Below are positions 7,592-33,209 of a stretch of 64,000 nucleotides of DNA, in pieces. A program made the translations under genes and the position numbers. Position 1 is the stretch's first letter. Each line of letters opens with the position of its first letter. Source of the DNA: Geothrix sp. (GTDB taxonomy: Bacteria > Acidobacteriota > Holophagae > Holophagales > Holophagaceae); contig JAUXSE010000056.1 in assembly GCA_030681515.1 (NCBI GenBank), positions 1 to 64,000 of the forward strand. The letters run 5' to 3'. The notes beneath the pieces were generated by a model. That model saw nothing but the letters and a program-made list of their open reading frames with translations, was not told where the DNA came from and did not search any database.

Positions 7592-7937
7592 AGGACCTCG
7601 GCATCCTGGAACGGGTGGGGTCCATCCTGAAGAACGGGGTGACGGTCCAGAAACCACCTTGAACATTTCCTGCAAACAGGATTCTACTGGTGTTTATCAA
7701 CTCGTGTTAAATGTTCATTTACATAAATAATTAACAAATAGAATTGATTCTCAGAAAAATTAACATTCCTTAACTTGGGAAACCAGGGGGCTGGCCGGAA
7801 GCTGACTGTCTCATCCCCAGTTCTTTCCACCCTTCACCCCGGGACGCCGCGGACCGCCTGCGTCGGCCAGGAACCCTCCAGGCTGGAAGAACCTGAAGGG
7901 CCGTGAACCCCCTTCCACCCTCCTGGAGGAGTTGCCC
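7592..7937. other. AT-rich intergenic promoter region before the M4 protease
   Basis: 346 bp without a gene. The first ~70 bp are ordinary GC-rich spacer. From about 7660 to 7780 the composition falls sharply, with several TTAA-centred elements (TTAACA at 7731 and 7760, TTAACT at 7770). The last 150 bp lead to a GGAGG Shine-Dalgarno site at 7925-7929. It most likely holds the regulated promoter of the secreted protease. Confidence 0.7.
7760..7803 (+). promoter_or_regulatory. TTAACA-N4-TTAACT box plus -10-like element
   Basis: TTAACA (7760-7765), 4 bp, then TTAACT (7770-7775) form a 10-bp-period direct repeat. GAAGCTGA begins at 7798, 38 bp after the box start. The same layout, with the same 38-bp distance to TAAGCTGA, lies before the M16 protease at 30282-30325. 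It resembles PhoP/PhoB-type tandem half-sites. The regulator is not identified. Confidence 0.5.
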
Positions 7938-10664
7938 ATGGCAACCATCAAGGGCCGTATGGCCCTGTCCTTTGTCACCGCGGCCCTGGCTGCCGGTTCC
8001 CTCTACGCCCGCACCCCGCAGGAGACACTGCGCGTGAACGCGGCCTCGGACCGCCTCATGGCGGATCGCGCCCAGCTGGGCCTGGATGCGGACAACGCCT
8101 TCCGGCTTCGCGGCTCCCATTCGGATGAGCTCGGCCAGACCCACGGCCACTTCGCCCAGGCCTACAAGGGCGTGAAGGTATGGGGCGGCGACGCCATCAC
8201 CCACACGGGCCGGGACGGTTCCGAACTTCCGCTCACGAACGCCCTCCACAAGAACATCCGCCTGAACGTGACCCCCTCCCTGGGCGCGGGCGAGGCCCTT
8301 GCCGCGGCCCAGATGGATCTGGCCCCCATGGGCGCCTACGCCTACGCCCCCACCACTGAACTGGTGGTCTACCCCCAGATGACCGATGTGATCGTCCGCC
8401 GCGCGGGCCGTCTTGCGGTGGACCAGGAGATCAATGCCACCGATGTGACCCGCCAGGTGGTGCGCTACAGCCTGGCCTACCATGTCCACACCGAACTCGA
8501 GAACGATCAGGACGGCATCCGGCACACCGACTACCTCGTGGACGCCCATACCGGCGCCATCCTGAAGAAGTGGAACACCCTCCACACCACCGCCGCCACG
8601 GGCACCGGCAACAGCCAGTACTCCGGCGTGGTCAGCCTGGCCACCAACTACACCGGCACCACCTATGAGATGCGGGACATGACCCGCGGCACGGCCGGGA
8701 CCTTCGGCAACAACGTGGTCACCGACATGAACCACGCCACCACCACCTCCACGGCCACCGGCACCCTCTACACGGACGCCGACAACACCTGGGGCGACGG
8801 CACCAACTACGTGGAAGGTTCCTCGACCACCGCCGCCAACGGGCAGACCGCCGCCGTGGACGCCATGTTCGGCATGGCCAAGTCCTGGGACTTCTTCAAG
8901 CTGGTCTATGGCCGCAACGGCATTGACGGCGCGGGCACGGCCACCTACAGCCGCGTGCACATCAGCAACAGCTACGACAACGCCTTCTGGTCCGACAGCT
9001 GCTTCTGCATGACCTACGGCGACGGTTCCTCCTTCACCACCCTCACCGCCCTGGACGTGGCCGGCCACGAGATGAGCCACGGCGTGACCTCCCGCACCGC
9101 CAACCTGACCTACTCCGGCGAGTCCGGCGGTCTGAACGAGTCCACCTCGGATATTTTCGGCACCATGATCGAGTACTACGCCCGCGGCGGCTCCGGCGCC
9201 ACCATCGGCAGCACCGGCGGCAACTGGACCATCGGCGAGCAGCTGGCCGCCACCCCCCTGCGCTACATGTACAAGCCCAGCCTGGATGGCGCCTCGCCGG
9301 ACGCCTGGTCCTCCACCCTCGGCACCCTGGACGTGCACTACTCCAGCGGCCCCATGAACCGCGGCTTCTACTTCCTCAGCCAGGGCGCGAGCAGCACCAG
9401 CACGAGCACGTCCTACACCTCCTACCTGCCCACGGGCATGACCGGCATCGGCAACGACAAGGCCTCGGCCATCTGGTTCCGCGCCCTCACCACCTACCTG
9501 ACCTCCAGTTCCAACTACGCCGCGGCCCGCACCGCCGCCATCAGCGCCGCCAAGGATCTCTACACCGCCGGCAGCGCCGAGGAGCAGGCCGTGTGGAACG
9601 CCTTCCACGGCATCAATGTCGGTCTGGCCTGGTCCACCACCCCGCCCCCGCCCACCAGCACCTTCACGGAGACGGAGCCCAACGATCTCGTCGGCACCGC
9701 CAACGCGGTGGCGCGCACCTTCACCGCCATCCAGGGCAACCTCACCGTCACCACGGACAAGGACTACTTCGGCCTGACCATGAACCCCGGCGAGACCCTG
9801 GCCTTCGCCATGACCGGGCCCACGGGCGTGGACTGGGACCTGAAGGTGGTGGACGCCGCCGGAACCCAGCTCGCCATCTCCCAGGGCAGCGCCGCCACCG
9901 AGAACATCACCTACACCAACACCGGCACCACGATCAAGGCCGTCTACGCGAATGTCTACGTCTACAGCGGCACCAGCGCCACGCCCTATAACGTGGCCCT
10001 GACCTACTCCGGCGGCACCACGCCCGTTCCTGACACCACCGCCCCCACGGTCTCCGCCACGGAGATCGGCACCAGCGGCACCATCACCTTCAACGCCACC
10101 GCCTCCGACAACGTCGGCGTCACCAAGGTGGAGTTCTACGTGGACGGCGTGCTGAAGGGCACCGACACCACCAGCCCCTACAGCATGACCCTGAACAGCA
10201 CCACGCTGACCAACGCCACCCACAGCCTCACCGCCAAGGCCTATGACGCCGCCGGGAACGCCACCACCTCCACGGCCGTGAACTTCACCATCAACAACAC
10301 CACCGCCACCAGCTTCACCGAAGTGGAAAGCAACGGCACCACCGCCGCGGCCAACGTGATCGCCGATACCATCACCACCATCGTCGGCAAGATCGGCACC
10401 TCCACCGACCTGGACTACTTCAAGATCAACGTCGCCGCCGGACGCACCGTGACCGTCAACATGACGGGCCCCGCCAAGGACTACGACCTCTACCTGCTCA
10501 GCAGCACCGGCGCCACCCTGAAGAGCAGCCTCGGCACGACGGCCACCGAGAGCGTGACCTACACCAACACCGGCACCACCACCGCGGTGTACTACATCAA
10601 GGTGCTCGGCTACGCCGGCGCCTTCGACACCGTCAATTCCTACACCCTGGCCCTCACCCGCTAG
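7938..10664 (+). CDS. Secreted M4 (thermolysin-like) metalloprotease with PPC and Ig-like domains
   Basis: 908 residues; ATG at 7938 chosen because GGAGG lies 8 nt upstream. A signal peptide covers residues ~1-22 (MATIKGRMALSFVTAALAAG) and an FTP/PepSY-type propeptide runs to ~200. The catalytic domain spans ~225-570 with HEMSH at 377-381 (zinc ligands His377 and His381, catalytic Glu378). The third ligand Glu401 is in GLNESTSD, exactly 24 residues after His377 as in thermolysin. Two pre-peptidase C-terminal (PPC) domains (~575-690 and ~795-908) flank an Ig-like domain (~698-790). It is likely an extracellular peptide scavenger. Confidence 0.95.
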   Translation: MATIKGRMALSFVTAALAAGSLYARTPQETLRVNAASDRLMADRAQLGLDADNAFRLRGSHSDELGQTHGHFAQAYKGVKVWGGDAITHTGRDGSELPLTNALHKNIRLNVTPSLGAGEALAAAQMDLAPMGAYAYAPTTELVVYPQMTDVIVRRAGRLAVDQEINATDVTRQVVRYSLAYHVHTELENDQDGIRHTDYLVDAHTGAILKKWNTLHTTAATGTGNSQYSGVVSLATNYTGTTYEMRDMTRGTAGTFGNNVVTDMNHATTTSTATGTLYTDADNTWGDGTNYVEGSSTTAANGQTAAVDAMFGMAKSWDFFKLVYGRNGIDGAGTATYSRVHISNSYDNAFWSDSCFCMTYGDGSSFTTLTALDVAGHEMSHGVTSRTANLTYSGESGGLNESTSDIFGTMIEYYARGGSGATIGSTGGNWTIGEQLAATPLRYMYKPSLDGASPDAWSSTLGTLDVHYSSGPMNRGFYFLSQGASSTSTSTSYTSYLPTGMTGIGNDKASAIWFRALTTYLTSSSNYAAARTAAISAAKDLYTAGSAEEQAVWNAFHGINVGLAWSTTPPPPTSTFTETEPNDLVGTANAVARTFTAIQGNLTVTTDKDYFGLTMNPGETLAFAMTGPTGVDWDLKVVDAAGTQLAISQGSAATENITYTNTGTTIKAVYANVYVYSGTSATPYNVALTYSGGTTPVPDTTAPTVSATEIGTSGTITFNATASDNVGVTKVEFYVDGVLKGTDTTSPYSMTLNSTTLTNATHSLTAKAYDAAGNATTSTAVNFTINNTTATSFTEVESNGTTAAANVIADTITTIVGKIGTSTDLDYFKINVAAGRTVTVNMTGPAKDYDLYLLSSTGATLKSSLGTTATESVTYTNTGTTTAVYYIKVLGYAGAFDTVNSYTLALTR

Positions 10665-10728: not shown

Positions 10729-11409
10729 ATGGCGATCCTGATCGCAGAACCCGATGACACCGAGGCCCAGAGGATCATCGAGGGCCTGACCGCCGACGGG
10801 TTCATCTGTGCCCGGGCTGAAACGGGCCACTTGGCCCTGGCCCACGCGGCCGCCTCCGAAGCCCTGGTGGCGGAGATCGCCCTCCCGGGACTGCCCGGGC
10901 TGGAACTGGCCCAGCGGATGCGGGAGGCCGGCATCACCACGCCCCTGATCTTCGTATCGGTCCTTTGCACGCCGGAACACCGCGTGCGCGGCCTGGAGGC
11001 CGGGGCCGACGACTACCTGGGCAAGCCCTTCACCATGCCCGAACTGTCCGCACGGTTGCGGGCCCTGGTCCGCCGCAGCCGGATGCCCTCGCGCCCCCTG
11101 CGCGTCCTGCTGGGGGATCTGATCTGGGAACCGGATCTCCGCCGCGTGTTCCGGGCGGGGGAGCGCCTGGAGCTCACCCCCAAGGAGTACACCCTCCTGT
11201 CCCTCCTGCTGGAACGGAAGGGACAGGTGGTCAGCCGGGAGGAGATCGCCCTGGCCCTCTGGGGCGCCGGGAAGGATCGGCCCGACCTCCGCAGCCCCAA
11301 TGCCATGGATGCCCAGGTGCGGCGCCTGCGCGCCAAGGTGGATGGCCCCTTCGCCAAGCCCCTGCTGCATACGCTTCGGGGCCAGGGGCTGACCATCGAG
11401 GCAGGGTGA
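10729..11409 (+). CDS. OmpR/PhoB-family response regulator with Glu at the phospho-acceptor site
   Basis: 226 residues. The receiver spans ~1-115 and a winged-helix DNA-binding domain ~125-226 (LELTPKEYTLLSLLLERKGQVVSREEI). The acidic pair Asp9/Asp10, Ser77 and Lys99 (GKPF) of the receiver are present. The phosphorylated Asp is replaced by Glu49 in ALVAEIALPGLPG, which aligns with the usual LDxxLPG. Asp-to-Glu can mimic phosphorylation, so it may be constitutively active or signal-independent. No histidine kinase is adjacent. Its targets are unknown. Confidence 0.88.
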   Translation: MAILIAEPDDTEAQRIIEGLTADGFICARAETGHLALAHAAASEALVAEIALPGLPGLELAQRMREAGITTPLIFVSVLCTPEHRVRGLEAGADDYLGKPFTMPELSARLRALVRRSRMPSRPLRVLLGDLIWEPDLRRVFRAGERLELTPKEYTLLSLLLERKGQVVSREEIALALWGAGKDRPDLRSPNAMDAQVRRLRAKVDGPFAKPLLHTLRGQGLTIEAG

Positions 11410-28851: not shown

Positions 28852-29550
28852 TCAGACGCCCGCGAGCAGCGCGGCCACCAGCGGTTCCGGCGCGCTGATC
28901 ATGGCGTCATGGCCCGTGGCAATCTCCACCACCGTCCAGTCGCCCTGGCAGCGCACGCGGTCCCGCATCACCGCCATGGAGGCAAGGGCGGGGGCGTGGC
29001 AGTCAATGAAGGTCCGGGGCAGGCCCCGCCACCGCGCCTCATCGAAGGCCAGCGGGGCGTCATAGACACCACCCGGTTGGGGGGTGAGCCGCCGGGCCAC
29101 CCAGTCGCGATCCGCGCCCGCCAAGCCGAAGACGGCCGGGTCCGGGGGCGGGAGCCACCCCAACTCGGAGATGCGGTCCCGGCGCTCCGCCCTGATCGCC
29201 TCGGTGTGGCCCGTGGACCAGGCATCGCCCGACCGAGGTACCACGGCATCCAGGTAGACCAGCCGTCCGATCCGCTCGGGTCGGCGCTCCGCCGCGCCGG
29301 TGATGACCATGCCGGCATAGCTGTGGCCCACCAGGACGCAGCCCGACAGCTCCTCCGCATCCAGCAGCGCAACCACATCCTGGACATGGGTGTCCAGGGT
29401 GATGGCAGGCGACCGCAGGTGTGCCCGTTCCCCCACCCCGCTGAGGCAGACGGCAAAAGCGCGATGGCCCGCCTGCCACAGGGCAGGCAGCACCCGATTC
29501 CAGCACCATGCCCCGTGCCAGGCACCAGGGACGAGAACGAAGTCGGTCAT
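28852..29550 (-). CDS. Alpha/beta-fold hydrolase (esterase-like)
   Basis: 232 residues. It opens MTDFVLVPGAWHGAWCWNRVLPAL, the HGAW oxyanion motif of salicylic-acid-binding-protein/hydroxynitrile-lyase-like esterases. The nucleophile elbow is GHSYAG and a C-terminal GHDAMI supplies the catalytic His. The substrate is unknown. Its stop abuts the isochorismatase stop tail-to-tail. Confidence 0.85.
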   Translation of the reverse strand: MTDFVLVPGAWHGAWCWNRVLPALWQAGHRAFAVCLSGVGERAHLRSPAITLDTHVQDVVALLDAEELSGCVLVGHSYAGMVITGAAERRPERIGRLVYLDAVVPRSGDAWSTGHTEAIRAERRDRISELGWLPPPDPAVFGLAGADRDWVARRLTPQPGGVYDAPLAFDEARWRGLPRTFIDCHAPALASMAVMRDRVRCQGDWTVVEIATGHDAMISAPEPLVAALLAGV

Positions 29551-29676
29551 GTCGGGTTCCTTCCTGCGACGCCAGGATGGGAGCCTACTGGTGATCTGGC
29601 AACCGATGGACCCCGCCCGCGACCTTCGGCAAGGATGGAATCCTGGTTGACCTTGACGACCCCGCCCGGAGCACCC

Positions 29677-30285
29677 ATGCACGCCCGCATCCACGGCCAG
29701 CCCGTCCCCGCCCTGTTCCCGGAATCGGGCCCCGTATCGGTGATGCTCTTCGGCGAGGCGCCGGGCCCCCGGGGCGCCGACCAGTCGGGCCTCCCCTTCT
29801 GGGGGGATGGCGCGGGCATCACCGTCTACCGCGCCCTCGCCGCCACGGGCCGGGCCGAGGTGCCCGAAGCCGCCTGGGAGGACTGGAACGGCGCCCGCTT
29901 CAAGGCCCTGGGCCTGGCACCGCGCCTGCATGGCACAGCCCTCAGCAACGCCTACCCGGCCTGCCCCACCAAGGATGGCGAGCACTTCCACGCGCCCTCC
30001 AACCGCGATCTGCTGGCTCCCGCCAACCTCGCGCGGCTGTCGGCGGAACTGGAGCAGGCCACGAAGGGCCGGACCTCTCCGCTGCGCGTCATCGCCTTCG
30101 GCAAGCGGGCCGAATGGGTGCTCACGCCCCTGGCGGAGGCCTCCCCCTTCGACCTTCACGCCCTCCCCCACCCCAGCGCCCAGGGGCTGCTGCAGGGGGC
30201 GCCGGGCCGGGGCAAGGGCATGAAGCTGGAAGACTTGAGGGCAGCCTGGCAGGCTCGGCTCATGGCCCTGCTCTCCCGTTCTTAA
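29677..30285 (+). CDS. Uracil-DNA glycosylase superfamily protein
   Basis: 202 residues. The first motif FGEAPGPRGADQSGLPFWGDGAG resembles the GEAPG..G.PF motif of family 4/5 UDGs, and HALPHPSAQG matches the HPS motif. LSNAYPACPTKDGEH is the central strand. The four Cys that ligate the Fe-S cluster in family 4 enzymes are not seen, so it is a divergent member. Expected role: base-excision repair of uracil or deaminated bases. It diverges from the hydrolase and is followed by the M16 protease. Confidence 0.75.
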   Translation: MHARIHGQPVPALFPESGPVSVMLFGEAPGPRGADQSGLPFWGDGAGITVYRALAATGRAEVPEAAWEDWNGARFKALGLAPRLHGTALSNAYPACPTKDGEHFHAPSNRDLLAPANLARLSAELEQATKGRTSPLRVIAFGKRAEWVLTPLAEASPFDLHALPHPSAQGLLQGAPGRGKGMKLEDLRAAWQARLMALLSRS

Positions 30286-30325
30286 CAATTCTTAACATCC
30301 CTGGGCCGAAAACCTCCCGTAAGCT
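30282..30325 (+). promoter_or_regulatory. TTAACA-N4-TTAACA box plus TAAGCT -10
   Basis: TTAACA at 30282-30287 and again at 30292-30297, 10-bp period, followed after 22 bp by TAAGCTGA (30320). The layout equals that before the M4 protease (38 bp from box start to the -10-like hexamer in both). Placed this way an activator would overlap the -35 region, as PhoB/PhoP-type regulators do. The box overlaps the end of the UDG gene. Confidence 0.55.
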
Positions 30326-30368
30326 GATGCCTTCCCCATCGGGGGATCTTTCTTAGCCTGGAGGCTCC

Positions 30369-33209
30369 ATGCCCTTCTCCCGTCGTTTCATGCTGCCCCT
30401 TTGCGGGACACTGGCGTTCGCGCTGGTGGCGGGGGACGCCCCCAAGCTGGCCCCGCCCGCGGCCAAGGTGACCTCCAAGGCGAAGGCGGCGAAGGCCGCG
30501 AAGCCCGCGCCGCTGTCCGCTCCAGTCAAGGTGGCCTCCGTCGAAGGCATCACCGAGTACCACCTGGCCAACGGCCTGCGGGTATTGATCTTCCCCGATC
30601 CCAGCAAGGCCACCATCACTGTGAACACCACCTTCCTGGTGGGTTCCCGCCATGAGAACTATGGCGAAACGGGCATGGCGCACCTGCTGGAGCACCTGGT
30701 CTTCAAGCCCAGCAAGAAATACAGCGGCAAGGATGGCCAGCCCAACCCCGTCGAAGTGCTGAACAGCGTCGGCGCGCGCTTCAATGGCAGCACCAACTAC
30801 GACCGCACCAATTACTTCGTCACCTTCCCCTCCTCCGACGAGAACTTCCGCAAGATCCTCGACCTGGAAGCGGACCGGATGGTGAACGCCAACATTGACC
30901 AGAAGGATCTCTGGGACCAGGCGGCGAACAAGGGCGAGATGACCGTGGTCCGCAACGAGTTCGAGATTGGCGAGAACAACCCCTTCCGCGTGACCCTGCA
31001 GCGGACCATGGCCGCCGCCTTCAGCTGGCACAACTACGGCAAGTCCACCATCGGCGCCCGCAGCGACATCGAGAATGTGAACATCGAGCGGCTGCGCGAT
31101 TTCTACCACAAGTACTACCAGCCGGACAACGCCGTGCTGCTGGTGGCGGGCAAGGTGGACGAGGCCAAGGCCATTTCCCTGGTGAACGAGTACTTCGGGC
31201 GCATTCCCCGGCCCCCCCGCGTCCTCCAGCCCACCTACACCCTCGACCCTGCCCAGGATGGCGAGCGCGAAGTCACGGTGCGGCGCGTGGGCGACGCCCA
31301 GGTGGTCATGGCCATGTACAAGATCCCGGCCGGCAGCGATCCGGAATACCCGGCCCTGGAGGTTCTGGGCCAGGTGATGGCCGATACCCCGGGCGGGCGC
31401 CTGCACAAGCAGCTGGTGGACACTAAGAAGGCCTCGGGGGTCTTTCCCTGGATCATGGGCGGACGCGAGCCCGGCTTCGCGCTCTTCGGCGCCCAGCTGC
31501 CCAAGGATGGGAACCTCGACGAGGGCAAGCAGACCCTGCTCAAGGCCCTGGAGCAGACGACCGAAGTCCCCATCTCCCAGGAGGAGGTGGACCGCGCCAA
31601 GCAGTCGCTCCTCAAGAACATTGACCTCACCCTGAACCAGAGCGATCGCCTCGGCATCGGGCTCTCGGAGTACATCGCCCAGGGCGACTGGCGGCTCTTC
31701 TTCCTGATGCGGGATCGCCTCAAGCAGGTCACGCCCATCACCGTCCAGGCCGCCGCCGCCAAGTACCTCAAGCGCGAGAACCGCACCCTGGGAACGTTCA
31801 TCCCCACCGCCAAGCCGGACCGCGCCGAGATCCCCGCCGCGGTGGATGTGGCCGCGCTGGTCAAGGACTACAAGGGCCTTGAGAAGGTGGCCCAGGGCGA
31901 GGCCTTCGACGCATCTCCCGCCAGCATCGAGGCCCGCACGCGCAAGGTCGCGTTCCCCGGGGGCCTCAAGGCGGCCTTCCTGCCCAAGAAGACGCGGGGC
32001 GAGCAGGTCAGTGCCACCCTCACCCTGCGCCTTGGCACCGAGGCCTCCCTCATGGACAAGGACCTTGCCGGGGAAATCACCGGCCAGATGCTCATGCGGG
32101 GCACCGCCAAGCACACCCGCCAGCAGATTGCAGACGAATTCGACCGTCTGAAGGCCCAGGTGAACATCGGGGGCAATGCCGAAAGCGTCAGCGCCCGCAT
32201 CACCACCACCCGTCCGAACCTGGCCGCGGTCCTGGATCTGGTCGCCGAGATCCTGAAGGAGCCCGCCTTCACCAAGGACGAGTTCGAGCGCCTGGTGAGC
32301 GAGACCATCACGCAGGTGGAGAGTCAGAAGAGCGAACCCAGCGCGGTGGCCCAGATTGCGTACCGCCAACACATGGATCCCTATCCCAAGGGCCACGTGC
32401 GGCACGTGAACAGCCTGGATGAGGCCATTGCAGCCTACAAGGGCGCCAAGCTGGAGGAGGCGCAGGCCTTCCACCGGGCCTTCTACGGCGCCTCCGCGGC
32501 TCAACTGGCGGTGGTCGGCGATTTCGACGACAAGGGCGTGGAGGCCCAGGCCAGGACGCTCTTCGGCGGCTGGAATTCCCCCCAGGCCTTCCAGCGCATC
32601 CCCAAGCGCATCCTGGAAGTTCAGCCCATCAACAAGACACTGGAGACACCCGACAAGGCCAACGCCTTCTTCCTCGCGGGCCTGGACAAGCCCATGAAGG
32701 ATTCGGATCCCGCCTACCCGGCCCTGCTCATGGGCAACTGGATGCTGGGCGGAGGAGCCCTGAAGAGCCGTCTGGCCGACCGCATCCGCCAGAAGGAGGG
32801 CCTCTCCTACGGGGTGGGCAGCCAGTTCAATGCGGACCCCCTCGATGCCTCCGCCAACTGGATCGCCTACGCCATGTACAACCCGGCCAACCTTGAAAAG
32901 CTGGAGAAGGCCTTCCGGGAGGAACTGGAAATGGCCCTGAAGGACGGCTTCACCGCCGAGGAACTCGGCGCCGCGAAGACCAGCTGGCTCCAGGGTCAGG
33001 AGACCAGCCGCACCCAGGATGGAGCCCTGGCTGGCCGCCTGGCTTCGAACCTGTTCCTGGGACGGGACCTGGCCTGGCAGGCCGACCTCGAAACCAAGGT
33101 CAAGGCCCTGACCAACGAGCAGATCGTACTGGCGCTCCGGAACTTCCTGGACCCCGCCAAGCTCAACATCGTCAAGGCCGGGGACTTCGCCAAGGGCGCG
33201 AAGAAGTAG
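30369..33209 (+). CDS. M16-family zinc protease (two-domain, exported)
   Basis: 946 residues. A signal peptide covers ~1-20 (MPFSRRFMLPLCGTLAFALV), then an Ala/Lys-rich linker. The N-terminal M16 domain carries HLLEH at 105-109 (inverted zinc motif) and the following EHLVFKPSKKY. The C-terminal half is a second, inactive M16 domain (SYGVGSQFNADP). This is the pitrilysin/PqqL-like arrangement that cuts peptides in a closed chamber. The TTAACA box before it is shared with the M4 protease. A strong terminator follows. Confidence 0.93.
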   Translation: MPFSRRFMLPLCGTLAFALVAGDAPKLAPPAAKVTSKAKAAKAAKPAPLSAPVKVASVEGITEYHLANGLRVLIFPDPSKATITVNTTFLVGSRHENYGETGMAHLLEHLVFKPSKKYSGKDGQPNPVEVLNSVGARFNGSTNYDRTNYFVTFPSSDENFRKILDLEADRMVNANIDQKDLWDQAANKGEMTVVRNEFEIGENNPFRVTLQRTMAAAFSWHNYGKSTIGARSDIENVNIERLRDFYHKYYQPDNAVLLVAGKVDEAKAISLVNEYFGRIPRPPRVLQPTYTLDPAQDGEREVTVRRVGDAQVVMAMYKIPAGSDPEYPALEVLGQVMADTPGGRLHKQLVDTKKASGVFPWIMGGREPGFALFGAQLPKDGNLDEGKQTLLKALEQTTEVPISQEEVDRAKQSLLKNIDLTLNQSDRLGIGLSEYIAQGDWRLFFLMRDRLKQVTPITVQAAAAKYLKRENRTLGTFIPTAKPDRAEIPAAVDVAALVKDYKGLEKVAQGEAFDASPASIEARTRKVAFPGGLKAAFLPKKTRGEQVSATLTLRLGTEASLMDKDLAGEITGQMLMRGTAKHTRQQIADEFDRLKAQVNIGGNAESVSARITTTRPNLAAVLDLVAEILKEPAFTKDEFERLVSETITQVESQKSEPSAVAQIAYRQHMDPYPKGHVRHVNSLDEAIAAYKGAKLEEAQAFHRAFYGASAAQLAVVGDFDDKGVEAQARTLFGGWNSPQAFQRIPKRILEVQPINKTLETPDKANAFFLAGLDKPMKDSDPAYPALLMGNWMLGGGALKSRLADRIRQKEGLSYGVGSQFNADPLDASANWIAYAMYNPANLEKLEKAFREELEMALKDGFTAEELGAAKTSWLQGQETSRTQDGALAGRLASNLFLGRDLAWQADLETKVKALTNEQIVLALRNFLDPAKLNIVKAGDFAKGAKK

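Follow-up and report, generated by a model that had tools for sequence, protein, structure and literature searches.

A TTAACA direct repeat with 10-bp spacing marks exported-protease promoters in Geothrix and other Holophagaceae and co-occurs with a PhoB-like response regulator

RESULTS

The same box precedes two exported-protease genes

The window, that is, the whole 64-kb stretch of DNA that was analyzed, carries genes for two exported proteases, each preceded by a TTAACA repeat. The features considered here are as follows.

7740..7753, + strand: second element, AGAATTGATTCTCA, inverted-repeat-like, 5′ of the M4 box
7760..7775, + strand: box before the M4 gene, TTAACA-TTCC-TTAACT, which aligns with orthologous M4 promoters
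7775..7780, + strand: −35-like TTGGGA of the M4 promoter, overlapping the last box base, 17 bp from the −10; TTGAGG or similar in orthologues
7798..7803, + strand: predicted −10 hexamer GAAGCT (M4), with +1 predicted near 7810
7938..10664, + strand: exported M4 (thermolysin-like) protease, ATG at 7938 after GGAGG; Pfam FTP, Peptidase_M4, M4_C and PPC; putative box target
10729..11409, + strand: OmpR-family response regulator, 3′ of the M4 gene and possibly a co-transcribed target
30282..30297, + strand: box before the M16 gene, TTAACA-ATTC-TTAACA, two direct half-sites at 10-bp spacing
30320..30325, + strand: predicted −10 hexamer TAAGCT (M16), TANNNT being conserved at matching spacing, with +1 predicted near 30332
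30369..33209, + strand: exported M16 (insulinase-like) protease, 946 aa; Pfam M16 and M16_C; putative box target

An earlier note on this DNA had claimed that the same repeat lies 5′ of the M16 and M4 genes and starts 38 bp before a (T/G)AAGCTGA sequence, and this proved exact at both sites (30282 to 30320 in TTAACAATTCTTAACA and 7760 to 7798 in TTAACATTCCTTAACT). The pattern TTAACANNNNTTAACW matched only at these two positions in the 64-kb window, also when one mismatch was allowed; no match arose in 100 dinucleotide-preserving shuffles of the window (67% G+C), and the expectation from base composition is ∼0.0004 per window. At 30282 the preceding open reading frame (28909-30285) ends inside the first half-site, its TAA stop codon occupying 30283-30285. 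The element is better defined as TTAACA-N4-TTAAC followed by a TANNNT-type −10, the trailing CTGA being conserved downstream sequence.

Promoter geometry

In class II activation, the activator's box is centered near −42. With TAAGCT and GAAGCT taken as the −10 hexamers, the start sites fall near the two positions given above and the center of the box at −42.5, which, on these predicted start sites, would be the position of a class II activator and suggests that the box serves activation. The M16 promoter has no recognizable −35 and no sigma-70 promoter scoring above threshold, and the M4 promoter has a weak −35 (TTGGGA) abutting the box. When the distance from box start to xANNNT was tabulated, the main peak lay at 38 bp and smaller ones were seen at 37, 39, and 41; the 38-bp offset is thus the commonest but not universal.

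The spacing of the half-sites was stricter. In ∼696 kb of loci fetched via protein similarity and not via the box, pairs of TTAAC lay 10 bp apart in 17 cases and 11 bp apart in one, and none were found at 7 to 9 or 12 to 15 bp. The spacing of the box is accordingly TTAA-N6-TTAA (10 bp) rather than TTAA-N7-TTAA (11 bp). Several loci carried extra repeats in the 10-bp register: three copies in L011, four in L015, and copies at 0, 10, and 30 in L138 and L166; L374 was a further case.

At the 5′ end of the predicted M16 transcript (30330-30352), a short stem, TTCCCCATCGGGGGA, is followed by TCTTTC. Stems of this type, though made of different bases, are found again in other M16 leaders of Geothrix, including those of genomes that lack the box; a conserved leader hairpin looked suggestive by eye, but RNAalifold gave it no support.

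The box is conserved across Geothrix and Holophagaceae

Exact TTAACN5TTAAC matches numbered 7 in the genome to which the window belongs, compared to 2 for the reversed control, and across 38 genomes of the genus TTAACAN4TTAAC was found 141 times, compared to 16 for the reversed pattern. A search with the box, 23 bp, and TANNNT retrieved the M16 promoter in many Geothrix species, and the bases between box and −10 had diverged among these promoters. In an alignment of 22 M16 orthologues, column information was highest in the two half-sites and low in the spacer; the alignment was anchored on the second TTAAC, so this half-site is invariant by selection. The box also lies 5′ of M16 genes in other genera (G056, G069, and G063), and the M16 footprint was seen in genera g10 and g11. 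Among 80 M16 homologues from genome contigs, the only box matches outside Holophagaceae were two distant ones, L254 at −182 and L284 at −281, which are probably due to chance. As judged from these comparisons of sequence, the box is a real regulatory element across the family Holophagaceae, whose members live in soil and sediment, and marks many secreted-protease genes.

Genes downstream of the box

The earlier note had proposed a genome scan for the box with a listing of downstream genes. In such scans, genes for M4, M16, TonB, and other exported proteins recurred. The fetched loci and their surroundings held 131 distinct boxes, and for 122 of these a same-strand open reading frame starts within 450 bp. 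These lists come from exact-pattern searches, so that weaker boxes such as CTAAACATTTCTTAACA are undercounted. The largest target group (n = 44) was mostly M4, with 39 members matching the propeptide-catalytic region of the window's M4 protease; three of the remainder were PKD-type exported proteins. Other groups were an exported family without a Pfam match (n = 17), a TonB protein (TonB_C, n = 16), and M16 (n = 10), followed by RHS-like exported proteins, PGAP1-like hydrolases, a Phi_1-domain protein, and a secreted nuclease. In the genome that holds the window, the genes 3′ of five out of six exact sites encode M4 (twice), M16, a PGAP1-like hydrolase, and TonB. Targets in other genera were again M4 and M16, and in g5 also, by inspection, TonB-dependent-receptor-like proteins. 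The idea of a shared activator for unrelated exported-protease genes is strongly supported by conservation in the genus and family, by the −42.5 position, and by this regulon, activation being the likely mode.

Just 5′ of the box, 24 of the 44 M4-cluster promoters have AGAAnTGATTCTCA, and none of the other 87 promoters does. This element is possibly the site of a second regulator; it is loosely Fur-box-like, with the arm spacing off by one base. In four Geothrix genomes (L154, L177, L187, and L151), a small conserved protein of 83 to 101 aa, assigned to no family, is encoded 3′ of a box.

A kinase-regulator pair has nearly the same distribution as the box

The window's genome has only four genes with an OmpR-family DNA-binding domain. 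One of them, here called RR3, encodes a PhoB-like response regulator outside the window (G000:C30:283094-283786), in the gene order nadA, histidine kinase, RR3, aroF (class II DAHP synthase). Two membrane segments are predicted in the kinase, one on either side of ∼230 residues. RR3 scores 218 bits with the NCBIfam PhoB model (cut-off, 296) and 147 with the CtrA model (cut-off, 350), and its own promoter carries no box.

RR3 (at least 79% identity) was present in 23 of the 25 Geothrix genomes with at least three boxes and in 1 of the 13 with fewer (Fisher P = 4e-7). In 30 genomes of ten other genera, boxes were found in all 15 with an RR3 orthologue (65 to 79%), whereas 13 of the 15 without one had none (P = 2e-6), and RR3 and box differed concordantly within genera g5 and g7. 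Geothrix genomes with RR3 averaged 5.5 boxes compared to 0.2 for the control; those without it had 0.7 compared to 0.8, which is background. The query of the Geothrix survey was 88% identical to the sequence of its source genome, G008; a rerun with the true sequence on 27 genomes of the genus and 33 mostly from other genera gave the same presence pattern where the genomes overlap. Regulators were profiled in the Trans_reg_C and LytTR families. RR3 alone among the genome's four OmpR-family regulators has a distribution that matches the box; the C11 OmpR-family regulator was rejected because it is also kept in box-less genomes (82 to 98% for PhoB and C11). LytTR regulators were considered because LytTR sites carry a GTTAA core, and both types in the window's genome seem, on scores and lengths only, to be represented in other genomes whether these are rich or poor in boxes.

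Empty sites and exceptions

In the RR3-negative genomes G014, G035, G037, G038, G041, G042, and G045, no kinase or RR3 was detected between nadA and aroF, and where both genes are fully in view the gap is ∼25 to 50 bp. The M16 promoters of G037, G038, and G045 have kept the −10 (GTAAGAT, GTAAGCT), but the box is gone. Since the box vanishes in species that lost the kinase-RR3 pair, this pair is the likely controller. The aroF tree of the genus calls for three changes of RR3; support for its backbone is weak, and the number of independent losses could therefore be below three.

One genome with boxes and no RR3, G031, also lacks the adjacent aroF, and the RR3 locus is thus probably unassembled there. 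G042 within the genus and G060 in genus g7 are without RR3, and in both the box TTAACAGGCTTTAAC has an RR3 paralogue (50 to 54%) on one side and a divergent outer-membrane-protein-like gene on the other. The recognition-helix motif RP[ST]xRTVDVH is common to RR3 and these paralogues: the segment reads RPSPRTVDVH in the paralogues, RPTARTVDVH in RR3 of the window's genome, and RPSPRTVDVH in RR3 of G066. At loci L381 and L111, from two genera, the box flanked by an RR3 paralogue and a divergently oriented outer-membrane-like gene (MHTRN...) has the layout of a local regulator-target pair. G043 (L422) has the cassette with an intact recognition helix and no exact box in its genome, and G075 (76% complete) has six boxes, with RR3 not found. 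G043 was also seen to have no close M16 orthologue, its best match being at 28% identity. At L165, L183, and L378, another OmpR-family regulator (∼39% identical to RR3), whose recognition helix is CtrA-like, is encoded just before a box that is accompanied by a small gene for an exported repeat-type protein (MRKLIALALVA...).

DISCUSSION

Alternative readings of the box

One alternative, that the repeats are mere −35-like sigma-70 elements in two AT-rich promoters, is suggested by the single mismatch between TTAACA and TTGACA. It is hardly credible: at 22 bp, the distance between the second TTAACA and the −10 is too great for a −35, the sigma-70 search came up empty at M16, and neither the strict 10-bp pairing nor the tandem arrays of three or four copies fit such elements. 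Control by the response regulator at 10729, the candidate of the earlier note, is similarly improbable. This protein is of the OmpR family and adjoins the M4 gene in G000, and the order box, M4, regulator recurs in G015 and G019. However, close orthologues (74 to 87%) were found in five genomes only (G000, G031, G026, G015, and G019), whereas 25 genomes are rich in the box and at least 20 of them have no such orthologue, and the candidate was therefore dropped. Its place directly 3′ of the M4 gene, which the box drives, makes it a likelier target than regulator. We also think it unlikely, if less so, that some other regulator, non-OmpR or unprofiled, binds the box and that the lineages which lost it lost RR3 as well, so that RR3 would be a passenger. 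Profiling spanned two DNA-binding families, and G043 and G075 break the association in either direction, which leaves room for such a protein; against it stand the concordance of RR3 and box over eleven genera and inside three of them, the RR3 paralogues adjoining the box in both exceptions inspected (G042 and G060), and the one-turn direct repeats, a hallmark of the OmpR/PhoB family (PMC3798270).

We regard it as very unlikely that PhoB reads the box as a Pho box and that the proteases are phosphate-starvation genes. TTAACA does resemble the repeats of the B. subtilis PhoP box, which governs a phosphate regulon with a spacing other than that of the Geothrix box. Cyanobacterial PhoB (SphR) sites, of which three repeats are needed in the phosphate regulon, likewise consist of direct repeats in tandem, built around a TTAA core (PMC11126600). 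However, PhoB is 82 to 94% conserved in box-less genomes, so that PhoB of the window's genome, unlike SphR, does not track the box, and contig C20, which bears the genes pstB-phoU-phoB-phoR, has no exact box, in contrast to what holds for B. subtilis PhoP. None of the exact boxes of the window's genome lay at a phosphate gene, the targets identified across the genus included no such gene either, and the 10-bp period itself speaks against a Pho box. The suggestion in the earlier note of a PhoP/PhoB-type box thus survives in part: a direct repeat of the OmpR/PhoB type is supported, but PhoB itself, equally present in box-less genomes, is most likely not the reader.

Comparison with known operators

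The E. coli ArcA box, read by an OmpR/PhoB-family regulator of a redox regulon, consists of direct repeats 11 bp apart center to center, often with extra repeats in register (PMC3798270). The Geothrix box shares with it two direct repeats one helical turn apart, sometimes with extra copies in register, but differs in its 10-bp spacing, its sequence, and its exported-protease rather than redox targets. The Caulobacter CtrA box, TTAA-N7-TTAA, is a direct repeat near −39 with 11-bp spacing, through which an OmpR-family activator controls cell-cycle genes (PMC4287350); the TTAA(C) half-sites in direct repeat are alike, but the N6 spacing and the low CtrA score of RR3 set the Geothrix system apart. 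One-turn direct repeats, extra in-register repeats, and a co-distributed OmpR-family regulator (RR3) are all found here, as in an operator of the OmpR/PhoB type. The Geothrix box would thus work like the ArcA, CtrA, or PhoB operators, yet by its spacing, the distribution of PhoB, and the NCBIfam scores of RR3 it is neither a Pho box nor a CtrA box.

A proposed extracellular-proteolysis regulon

With the conservation, spacing, positions, and targets of the box, its co-occurrence with RR3, and the empty site established, we consider it quite probable that the box is the operator of an OmpR/PhoB-family response regulator, most likely RR3, which would activate exported-protease promoters upon phosphorylation and binding. 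In the proposed mechanism, the kinase would sense an extracellular cue and phosphorylate RR3. Two, sometimes three or four, TTAACA copies one helical turn (10 bp) apart would then bind phosphorylated RR3 in tandem, head to tail, near −42, from where it may recruit RNA polymerase to promoters with a weak −35 or none, activating rather than repressing them. The output would be the switching on of exported M4 and M16 proteases together with accessory genes (TonB, nuclease, lipase-like, and RHS-like proteins), possibly for the scavenging of peptides or biomass.

It is likely, we believe, that the nadA-[kinase-RR3]-aroF cassette is a previously undescribed system of Holophagaceae that runs a dedicated extracellular-proteolysis regulon via a strictly 10-bp TTAACA operator, and that cassette-less lineages lost the operators at their remaining targets. 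No such regulon was found described for Geothrix, Holophagaceae, or other Acidobacteriota in the literature searched, most subscription journals lying outside the search. The operator, the predicted regulator-kinase pair, and the target list would link one sensor to protease secretion in a form testable in cultured Geothrix, for which the natural empty sites are ready negative controls, and they could help predict which members of the phylum contribute to protein turnover in soils and sediments.
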